From positions 266,131-308,229 of the forward strand of contig CALKEU010000001.1 in assembly GCA_938084565.1 (NCBI GenBank): a DNA stretch of 42,099 nucleotides, written 5' to 3'. A program made the position numbers and the translations under genes. Shown here piece by piece: positions 39,415 through 42,099 of the stretch. The number at the start of each line of letters is the position of its first letter. The first letter of the stretch is position 1. The notes below the pieces were generated by a model. The model made no database searches. It saw nothing but the letters and a program-made list of their open reading frames with translations, and was not told the origin of the DNA. The DNA comes from Candidatus Kapaibacterium sp. (GTDB taxonomy: Bacteria; Bacteroidota; Ignavibacteria; Kapaibacteriales; HRBIN21).

Positions 39415-39475
39415 CTTGCTCCCCCGACATACGGTCTCAAGGCTACAGCCCGCCTCGTGGCTGATGTAAGTCATT

Positions 39476-39491
39476 AGGGATCATGATCCCT
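39476..39491. repeat. 16-bp perfect palindrome upstream of the oxidoreductase operon
   Basis: AGGGATCATGATCCCT, a perfect inverted repeat without spacer, about 78 nt before the operon's first ATG and 30 nt upstream of a candidate -7 element. The position suits an operator for a homodimeric regulator. The remaining intergenic sequence from 39415 shows no gene. Confidence 0.5.
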
Positions 39492-39520
39492 CTCCTCAGC
39501 AGGGGCCAATTTGTGCACGC

Positions 39521-39528
39521 TATCTTTG
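39521..39528 (+). promoter_or_regulatory. Candidate -7 promoter element of the oxidoreductase operon
   Basis: TATCTTTG followed by C, an exact match to the Bacteroidota -7 consensus TAnnTTTG, about 40 nt before the ATG at 39569. A TTTG exists only 7 nt upstream, too near to be the -33 element. The 16-bp palindrome lies 29 nt upstream. Confidence 0.45.
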
Positions 39529-39568
39529 CGCGGCCAAGTTATGGTGCAATGCGCGTGGAGAGAGCGTA

Positions 39569-40657
39569 ATGGAAACCTCAACGATGGGAGCGTCCCCGCC
39601 GATGGAGCTCACTGAGCTCCTGGAGAAGCACCTCCACGATATGTCACCAGGGGAGATGCGAGAAGTATTGTGCGACCTTCCCGATGCAGATGTACTGACC
39701 CAGCACTGGTGCGAGTTACACCACTTCAAACTCCTCAGTGCGGAGCGCCAGGGTGGGCAGTGGCGGTTGCGGATTCAACGTGTCAACGGCCAGGCAGCCT
39801 CCGCACAGCACCTCGGGCGGCGACAGGCGCTCCTCCGGATAGCGCAGGCAGTCTTCTCAGGGCTTGCATTGGCGCTGCTTTCGGATCGGCGCGCTCAAGC
39901 CCAAGAGCCCCAACTCGAAGAGCTCAAGCTGCCCGAACTGCCCCCGCCCCAGCCGAACGAGGATGTGCTGATACGCATGATGCGCGACTTGCAGCGCGCG
40001 CTCAAAAAGCCGATGGAGCAGCGCCGCTGGGTGATGGTGATCGACCTGCGCAAGTGCGTCGGTTGCCACGCCTGCACGATTGCTTGTATTGCCGAGAACA
40101 AGCTGCCGCCGGGCGTGGTCTACCGCCCCGTGATTGAGGAGGAGATCGGCGAGTACCCGTATGTCACGCGCCGATTCCTGCCCCGTCCCTGCCTGCAGTG
40201 CGAAAACCCGCCCTGTGTCCCCGTCTGCCCTGTACATGCAACCTGGACGCGCCCTGATGGCATTGTCGTAATTGATTACGACGCCTGCATTGGCTGCCGG
40301 TACTGCATCACGGCATGCCCATACGGCGCGCGTTCGTTCGATTTTGGCGAGCATTACAGCGACGGAACGCCGCAGCTTGCCGAGTACGATAGTGCGCCCA
40401 GCCCCGAATATGGACGCTTCTGGGAGCGCAAGGGCACGCGCTCGCCCGTGGGCAACGCCCGCAAGTGCCACTTCTGCCTGCACCGCATCGAGAAGGGCAT
40501 GCTGCCCCAGTGCGTCACCTCGTGCATCGGGCGGGCGACTTTCTTTGGCGATGCGAATGACCCTGATAGCCTCGTGGCAGAACTGATTGCGCAACCGAAT
40601 GTGATGCGGCTCAAAGAAGAGCTGGGCACCAAGCCGCGTGTCTACTACCTCGTTTAG
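39569..40657 (+). CDS. Four-cluster Fe-S electron-transfer subunit with N-terminal TusA-like domain and internal Tat signal
   Basis: 362 residues; GGAGAG lies 7 nt before the ATG. Residues about 150-360 are a PsrB/DmsB/TtrB/NrfC-type ferredoxin with four 4Fe-4S sites: [11 protein letters not shown] (from 163), [24 protein letters not shown] and [21 protein letters not shown] twin-arginine signal (GRRQALL at 83-89, hydrophobic core, AQAQ) lies not at the N-terminus but behind about 80 residues. These align with TusA/SirA sulfur carriers ([36 protein letters not shown]) but have SPPM in place of the active CPxP. The subunit would carry electrons between the NrfD-type membrane subunit and the catalytic subunit encoded next. 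Confidence 0.88.
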
Positions 40658-40659
40658 AT

Positions 40660-40667
40660 GGAGGTGA
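40660..40667 (+). promoter_or_regulatory. Shine-Dalgarno sequence deciding the start of the NrfD-like gene
   Basis: GGAGGTGA lies 5 nt before the ATG at 40673, which makes that codon the start rather than the in-frame ATG at 40658 that overlaps the site. Confidence 0.8.
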
Positions 40668-40672
40668 GCAAG

Positions 40673-41977
40673 ATGGCACACAGCATTACTTCAGGGATGC
40701 AGAACCGGACGCGCACGCTCTACTACGGAGTGCTGGCGATCCTATCGCTGATAGGGCTCGTTGCCCTTATTGTGCGATTTGTCAAGGGTATGAGCGTCAC
40801 TGCCCTCACAAGCCCGATCGCATGGGGCATGTGGGTTGCCTTCTACATCTACTTCATCGGGCTGTCCGCTGGGTCGTTTCTGCTCGCTGCGTCCATTTAT
40901 GTGTTTGGGATCCATCGGTACGAGAAGGTCGGGCGAATAGCGTTGCTTTCCGCTTTGTTCTCACTGATTGCTGGCTTTGTGTTTGTATGGATTGACCTCG
41001 GCCAGCCCTGGCGTGCTTGGAAGATGTTTACTCGTTGGAATTACACCTCGCTGTTGGCCTGGGAAGGTGTGGCCTACCTCTTCTATGCCCTGGTGCTGCC
41101 CATTATGCTATGGACATTGATGCGCTGTGACATAGCAGACCTCGTACGGCGCACCGTGGGTTGGCGCCAGCGGCTCTACCGATTGCTTACCTTCGGCTTC
41201 CGTTGTCCAGAGTCTGAGTCGGAGTATCAACGCTGCCACCGGGAAACCCTGCGCATTGTGAAAACACTGGGCATCATCGGTATTGTCACCGCCATCGTGA
41301 TCCGCGGAGGCACAGCTGCTCTCTTTGCAGTCGTGGTTGCAAAGCCGTACTGGAACACAGCGCTCCTGCCTGTCATCTTCCTCGTCTCAGCCTTGGCAAG
41401 CGCTGCAGCTTTACTGACGTTTCTATATGCCTTTTTCGGTCGCAAGGACGAAGACCATCTGGCAATTACGCGCGGCATGGCGCGCCTGATGGCAATATTG
41501 ATCGGCGTCGAGTTATTCCTATTTGCCAATGAGCTGCTGATAGGGCTGTACGGGAAGGTTCCCGAGCACCTTGAAATCTATCACGCCATCTTCTTCGGCC
41601 CGTTTCCCTATACGTTTTGGATTGGACACCTGCTGCTCGGCGCAATCATTCCAATGGCGCTTGTTCTGCTACCGCATACGCGCAACAGCGCTTTCTGGTT
41701 AGGGCTAGGCGGGTTAAGCGCGTTGATTGGGATTGTAGCCGTGCGCCTAAATTTTGTGATTCCGCCCTACGTTGTGCCCGTACTAGAAGGATTAGATCAC
41801 GCGATTCATCAGCCGCGTTGGGCCTACAGCTACTTTCCCAGCTTCTGGGAGTGGGCGAGCAGCATTGGCACGATTGCCCTTGTGGTGTTCCTCTTCAGCC
41901 TCGCCTTCCAGTTCCTGCCGATATTCCACGAGTTTCCTGAGCGATTGAAATCGCAAGGAGGAGGTGCTGTGCAATGA
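40673..41977 (+). CDS. NrfD/PsrC-type membrane quinone-interacting subunit
   Basis: 434 residues from the ATG at 40673. About nine to ten membrane helices. Conserved-looking features are SPIAWGMWVAFYIYFIGLSAG in the first helices, WIDLGQPWRAWKMF, and LLAWEGVAYLF; the later helices include FANELLIGLYG, WIGHLLLGAIIP and VRLNFVIPPYVVPV. The family exchanges electrons between quinol and the Fe-S subunit without haem. Its position between a four-cluster Fe-S subunit and a Tat-exported subunit matches PsrB-PsrC or TtrB-TtrC pairs. The stop overlaps the next start (ATGA). Confidence 0.92.
   Translation: MAHSITSGMQNRTRTLYYGVLAILSLIGLVALIVRFVKGMSVTALTSPIAWGMWVAFYIYFIGLSAGSFLLAASIYVFGIHRYEKVGRIALLSALFSLIAGFVFVWIDLGQPWRAWKMFTRWNYTSLLAWEGVAYLFYALVLPIMLWTLMRCDIADLVRRTVGWRQRLYRLLTFGFRCPESESEYQRCHRETLRIVKTLGIIGIVTAIVIRGGTAALFAVVVAKPYWNTALLPVIFLVSALASAAALLTFLYAFFGRKDEDHLAITRGMARLMAILIGVELFLFANELLIGLYGKVPEHLEIYHAIFFGPFPYTFWIGHLLLGAIIPMALVLLPHTRNSAFWLGLGGLSALIGIVAVRLNFVIPPYVVPVLEGLDHAIHQPRWAYSYFPSFWEWASSIGTIALVVFLFSLAFQFLPIFHEFPERLKSQGGGAVQ
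41955..41966 (+). promoter_or_regulatory. Shine-Dalgarno sequence of the right-edge gene
   Basis: AAGGAGGAGGTG region ending 7 nt before the ATG at 41974, inside the 3' end of the NrfD-like gene. Supports translation of the partial gene at the right edge. Confidence 0.75.
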
Positions 41978-42099
41978 TGAAGCGCATATTCGACGAATGG
42001 TTCAAAAAGCGGCATACCAAGCTCAACGCATGCCCTTCTGAGGGATCGGGAGCAGTGCAATCAGGCGCTCTCGACCGCCGCCATTTTCTAAAGACGGGG
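41974..42099 (+). CDS. Tat-exported oxidoreductase subunit, 5' end only (probable molybdopterin catalytic subunit)
   Basis: Only 42 codons lie in the window and the frame is open to the edge. Two adjacent ATG codons (41974 and 41977) are possible starts after a strong Shine-Dalgarno site. Residues 34-40, DRRHFLK, are a near-ideal twin-arginine motif; the hydrophobic core would follow outside the window. In the order Fe-S subunit, NrfD subunit, Tat protein (as in ttrBCA) the third gene encodes the molybdopterin-containing catalytic subunit of a polysulfide, thiosulfate, tetrathionate or related reductase. That is inferred from context only; another periplasmic redox protein is possible. Confidence 0.6.
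   Translation, partial: MMKRIFDEWFKKRHTKLNACPSEGSGAVQSGALDRRHFLKTG

Follow-up and report, generated by a model that had tools for sequence, protein, structure and literature searches.

TusA (the YhhP/SirA family, PF01206) has a beta-alpha-beta-alpha-beta-beta fold, is free in the cytoplasm, and carries its catalytic cysteine in a CPxP motif. Subunits of the PsrB/TtrB/NrfC type, such as Thermus PsrB (2vpw_B), have 16 cluster cysteines and a Tat signal and adjoin an nrfD/psrC gene; in ttrBCA, the gene order is B-C-A. When a Tat signal inserts, its N-terminus remains on the cytoplasmic face of the membrane, as do any residues ahead of the twin arginines (RR), which are freed with the signal peptide. 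It is an open question how cofactor-bearing Tat substrates are kept from export before loading, and the usual answer is separate chaperones of the TorD/NarJ type. The TusA-family protein PA1006 of Pseudomonas aeruginosa has contacts to both a molybdoenzyme chaperone and an Fe-S subunit: GFP complementation gives signals with the chaperone NarJ and with NarH, an Fe-S subunit of a related kind. Its cysteine is essential (PMC3568144). YeeD, another TusA-family protein, docks on its partner YeeE (PMC11073785), and in the YeeE-YeeD (TsuA-TsuB) fusion (8k1r) a TusA-fold domain is joined to a membrane-related partner.

The protein described here resembles TusA in fold, PGE turn, length, and a cysteine at the place of E. 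coli Cys56, but it lacks the CPxP cysteine, its beta1 is weak, and the domain stands ahead of a Tat signal instead of being free. It shares with PsrB, TtrB, and NrfC the 16 cluster cysteines, the adjoining nrfD/psrC gene, the Tat signal, and the B-C-A order; unlike them, it has 83 residues with a TusA fold ahead of the RR. In YeeE-YeeD, by contrast, the partner is a thiosulfate transporter and the TusA part is C-terminal and keeps its cysteine, whereas PA1006 is a free protein with an essential persulfide cysteine (Cys22). The fusion is genuine, and in keeping with the remark in the first-pass annotation that no described protein has this order, our literature search found no paper describing a TusA-like domain ahead of a Tat signal on an Fe-S subunit.

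The gene lies close to the end of the window, that is, the whole stretch of 42,099 nucleotides that was analysed (Candidatus Kapaibacterium sp., contig CALKEU010000001.1), and the end of the window is the end of the contig. The genome measures 1.87 Mb and is about 100% complete by markers. The features of the locus are:

39557..39562, + strand: Shine–Dalgarno-like GGAGAG, six bases before the ATG (sequence)
39569..40657, + strand: TusA-like domain, Tat signal, and four-cluster Fe-S subunit (PsrB/TtrB type), 362 aa (open frame, Pfam, NCBIfam)
39569..39784, + strand: predicted TusA-fold domain, residues 1-72, no CPxP cysteine (Pfam, shuffles, hhalign, AlphaFold with VIA-align)
39710..39712, + strand: Cys48, matching Cys56 of E. 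coli TusA in position (structural alignment of residues 11-72 to 19-80; WC shared with TusA L060 and L079)
39767..39769, + strand: TTG codon 67, the sole possible internal start between domain core and RR (codon scan)
39782..39901, + strand: linker and predicted Tat signal, with R84-R85, hydrophobic stretch 92-104, and an AQA cleavage site whose last residue is 111 (sequence; relatives that have a signal conserve the RR; TatC in the genome)
40019..40654, + strand: Fe-S core (residues 151-362) with its 16 cluster cysteines (sequence; top relative of solved structure: Thermus PsrB 2vpw_B, 6.5e-47)
40658..41977, + strand: psrC/nrfD membrane subunit (PF03916, 1e-49)
41974..42099, + strand: first part of the catalytic molybdopterin subunit, which bears a separate RR signal and is truncated where the contig ends (sequence; orthologues in the sister genome and L037 closest to TtrA)

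The frame, the coordinates, and the domain order agree with the first-pass annotation. An in-frame stop lies 33 codons 5' of the ATG at 39569, with no ATG, GTG, or TTG between the two. On the 5' side, the site that follows the EamA-family gene (39415-39568) is variable in the genus: this gene is followed by a restriction-type gene in genome G001, by another conserved large protein in four genomes, and by psrBC in the window.

From sequence and predicted structure taken together, the TusA-like domain is real, as had been proposed for residues about 9-72. When the whole protein is compared with PF01206, the match (1e-5, 25.7 bits) falls under the curated cut-off of 28.6 bits; the isolated N-terminus passes it, with 29.4-30.0 bits (7e-7 to 5e-7). 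Against a TusA HMM built without this domain, the N-terminus ranked best of 5001 when set among 5000 shuffles, and hhalign against eight TusA sequences gave a probability of 91.5 (E 8.8e-7). A search of viral contigs for TusA relatives with which to deepen the alignment returned none.

The structure prediction that the first-pass annotation had proposed as a check also yields the TusA fold. AlphaFold, run on residues 1-74 with no alignment, produced alpha1-beta2-alpha2-beta3-beta4 at a pLDDT of 83, with beta1 unformed and residues 1-4 below 50. The top seven structural matches to this model all belong to the TusA family (Z 8.8 to 6.1), YeeD (8k1r) being the best at 8.8 and TusA scoring 8.5, and the first unrelated chain follows at 5.7; VIA-align to 3lvj_C gave Z 8.5 with an rmsd of 1.8 over 62 residues. 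Foldseek's own E-values for the same model are weaker (0.01-0.02). When the Tat helix is included (residues 1-112), the prediction is poor, its five models disagree (79.6, then about 62), and neither the TusA fold nor any substantial TusA match emerges; interference by the Tat helix seems to be the cause. Membership in the Cys-less, TusA-like DUF2249 family was considered and rejected, with an hhalign probability of 0.1 against six DUF2249-type domains of the class and no match to PF10006.

Whichever alignment is used, there is no cysteine before C35. The first-pass annotation had read SPPM as the counterpart of CPxP; the loss of the cysteine stands, but the exact pairing came from a single gapped alignment, and the ungapped structural alignment of residues 11-72 to E. 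coli TusA 19-80 instead puts P11 at the place of Cys19. The same alignment sets Cys48 opposite Cys56, so that the earlier placement of Cys48 at a TusA cysteine is upheld. With the CPxP motif and its catalytic cysteine missing, persulfide transfer via that cysteine is, by the sequence of the domain, impossible. One might still picture an active sulfur carrier that takes up sulfur through Cys48 or Cys35 for cofactor sulfuration or Fe-S assembly, given that Cys48 pairs with Cys56 of the E. coli protein and also with the WC common to TusA L060 and L079. We regard this as most improbable: the CPxP cysteine, essential in PA1006 and YeeD (PMC3568144, PMC11073785), is absent, and the position of Cys48 is a tryptophan in L038, the one contig with a homologous N-terminus. 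In addition, at the cut-offs used, the window genome has no match to any other TusA or to DsrE, which makes a TusA/DsrE relay partner unlikely and weakens the earlier suggestion that the domain binds a sulfur carrier.

The remainder of the protein is a PsrB/TtrB/NrfC-type subunit, its cysteines falling into the four [4Fe-4S] sets of that type (Fer4_11, 2e-18), with the NrfD-type gene directly 3'. The NCBIfam matches to DsrO and TtrB are both under their cut-offs (188.3 bits against 416 for the TtrB equivalog). The catalytic-subunit orthologues in L036 and L037 are TtrA-like, and those of L037 and the same-genus genome G002 are closest to TtrA, so the window complex is best described as TtrBCA/PsrBCA-like. 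By inspection, R84-R85, an h-region at 92-104, and AQA at 109-111 make the product a predicted Tat substrate, and TatC is encoded in the genome (1.4e-62). The signal is thus internal, with the twin arginines behind the TusA-like part, just as first annotated.

The same order was looked for in other genomes, as suggested earlier. A homologous N-terminus is present in L038, a MAG contig labelled Thermoguttaceae, which from the matching ATG likewise has 83 residues before the RR; the two align without gaps at 22 of 83 identical residues (26%) and a score of 58, and none of 20000 shuffles did as well (maximum 7). The L038 start is uncertain, as the open frame extends beyond it in the 5' direction and there are other ATGs. 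Among 395 Bacteroidota genomes, no other PF01206 match lies in a PsrB-sized frame. The remaining long-frame matches fall into two size classes, about 820-844 aa and 180-295 aa, and DUF2249-like domains occur in those members of the second class that were read. Searched in 99 relatives, the N-terminus matched only itself, and no related locus has a separate tusA gene beside psrB. Because L038 carries a homologous N-terminus of equal length, the TusA-PsrB fusion is, as far as these alignments tell, older than one genome, but it is rare and fast-evolving.

Several other frames seen in these searches deserve mention in their own right. Proteins of 270-295 aa with two Cys-less DUF2249-like domains and a weak match to the TusA model (L063, L066, L067, L068, and L070) are common in the class. 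The TusA matches in frames of 821-844 aa (G403, G410, G501, G505, and G542) are perhaps multi-domain redox-rhodanese-TusA fusions. On haloarchaeal plasmids (L034 and L035), Fe-S subunits 57-60% identical to the window protein lie in operons with a TorD-type chaperone and Mrp/NBP35 genes; the N-termini of these relatives hold a different domain, Ferredoxin_N, which in L034 takes the place of the Tat/TusA part.

The divergence of L038 raises the possibility of a decaying relic, in which a tusA gene was fused by accident, lost its cysteine, and is now an oversized Tat n-region drifting away, L038 being a later stage and the sister having lost or never had the domain. The L038 N-terminus has no Pfam TusA score despite its equal length, and DNA identity between window and L038, about 79% in the core, is down to 47% in the N-terminus. 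L037 has an unrelated 57-residue extension (its reading as a degenerate TusA was rejected for want of any similarity to the window domain), and G002 has an n-region of only seven residues. Against decay, the window copy is still recognised as TusA by Pfam and, modelled from its sequence alone, has the TusA fold, and conservation between the window and L038 N-termini is 0.55, 0.49, and 0.37 at codon positions 1, 2, and 3 (composition expectation 0.25-0.29); since positions 1 and 2 are conserved above position 3, the N-terminus has evolved as a protein under some constraint, which is far looser than that on the core. A relic is a strong contender, to which we return below.

Start codons merit the same scrutiny. 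After codon 34, the sole ATG, GTG, or TTG before the RR is TTG codon 67, which lies inside the last TusA strand and has a weak upstream ribosome site. TusA homology continues in the same frame through residue 71, which indicates one gene. The first-pass annotation had tied relatives that begin directly at the Tat signal to an internal real start. Such relatives exist: the G002 orthologue (83% identical) has no TusA part and begins MSATALNRR, seven residues before the RR, and in most others the protein starts at the signal, starts close to it, or carries an unrelated extension. This does not in itself make the real start internal: only TTG codon 67 is available, and the L038 N-terminus is homologous, of equal length, and gap-free. 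It is conceivable that the main product is an ordinary Tat-signal subunit made from this TTG (39767), in frame and with an n-region of 17 residues before the RR, like the relatives, with the TusA-like part going unused or appearing only in a minor, longer product. This is improbable, given the weak ribosome site compared with the GGAGAG before the ATG, homology that runs on through residues 68-71, a frame without a stop from the ATG (so that the long form would be made), and an N-terminus common to L038 from Met1.

The contig end also calls for caution. Only the first 42 codons of the catalytic subunit are present, and the rest of the pathway is absent: neither a catalytic subunit of a PsrBCA-like complex elsewhere nor the C-terminal domain of MoaA (PF06463), which is present in G002, was found in the window genome. 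The assembly may lack the remainder of the island; if it does not, the complex is non-functional here. Furthermore, at about 40811 the identity of psrC to L038 jumps from 66-75% to 98.6% (window 40811-42099 against L038:7250-8538, 18 mismatches in 1289 bases), and the two contigs, of which L038 is binned in another phylum, end in the same 141 bases, a length equal to the largest k that MEGAHIT usually employs. This pattern suggests that psrCA was recently transferred or recombined between organisms living together, or that the assembly is mixed. The break inside psrA, the missing genes, and the abrupt identity at the contig end would also suit an artefact in which an indel or contig chimerism brought a separate tusA-like gene and psrB together. 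We consider this very unlikely, because the odd junction sits in psrC, 150 bases past the end of psrB, tusA lies beside psrB in no relative, and L038, at 47% DNA identity, makes two different contigs agree on the N-terminus.

Our preferred reading, held tentatively, is that the N-terminus is a non-catalytic, lineage-restricted TusA-fold n-region serving as a docking or assembly module, akin to the docking or proofreading role that the first-pass annotation had put forward as a possibility. In a small lineage, a TusA domain would have joined the 5' end of a psrB/ttrB-type gene as an in-frame fusion and lost its catalytic cysteine, and the internal Tat signal would target the fusion protein. Given the orientation in which Tat signals insert, the TusA-fold part would be left in the cytoplasm, freed with the signal peptide on cleavage at AQA or, if AQA is uncut, acting as a tether. 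Most likely, it would offer a surface on which other proteins dock while assembly proceeds in the cytoplasm, keeping the Fe-S subunit close to the machinery that loads cofactors or delaying its export until loading is complete. In favour of this reading stand the retention of the fold though the cysteine is gone, the continuous frame with no convincing internal start, the homologous L038 N-terminus with its protein-like codon conservation, the presence of TatC, and the lack of any other TusA or DsrE match, which leaves no TusA/DsrE relay for the domain to serve. The analysis establishes the fusion, the predicted fold, the missing cysteine, the domain order, and the rarity, whereas we infer the cytoplasmic fate and the docking role. 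With CPxP sulfur transfer lost and a binding surface left, PA1006 and YeeD serve as precedents that favour docking, though the cysteine of PA1006 is essential. Against it, the same-genus orthologue and most relatives work without the domain, the L038 domain no longer scores as TusA, as one would expect of a relic, and the missing MoaA and catalytic subunit make assembly of the complex here doubtful. The docking module is therefore favoured, with the decaying relic close behind.

The restricted distribution and fast divergence make a passing fusion nearly as likely as a lasting innovation. More speculatively, and rather less probably, the dead TusA fold might be a built-in, disposable cytoplasmic checkpoint that docks on the maturation machinery via the former TusA interface and stays behind at Tat export. 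A folded domain ahead of the twin arginines would be a natural test case for such a checkpoint acting in cis and, if the docking reading is true, the window domain would be a rare case of the TusA fold used without sulfur chemistry.
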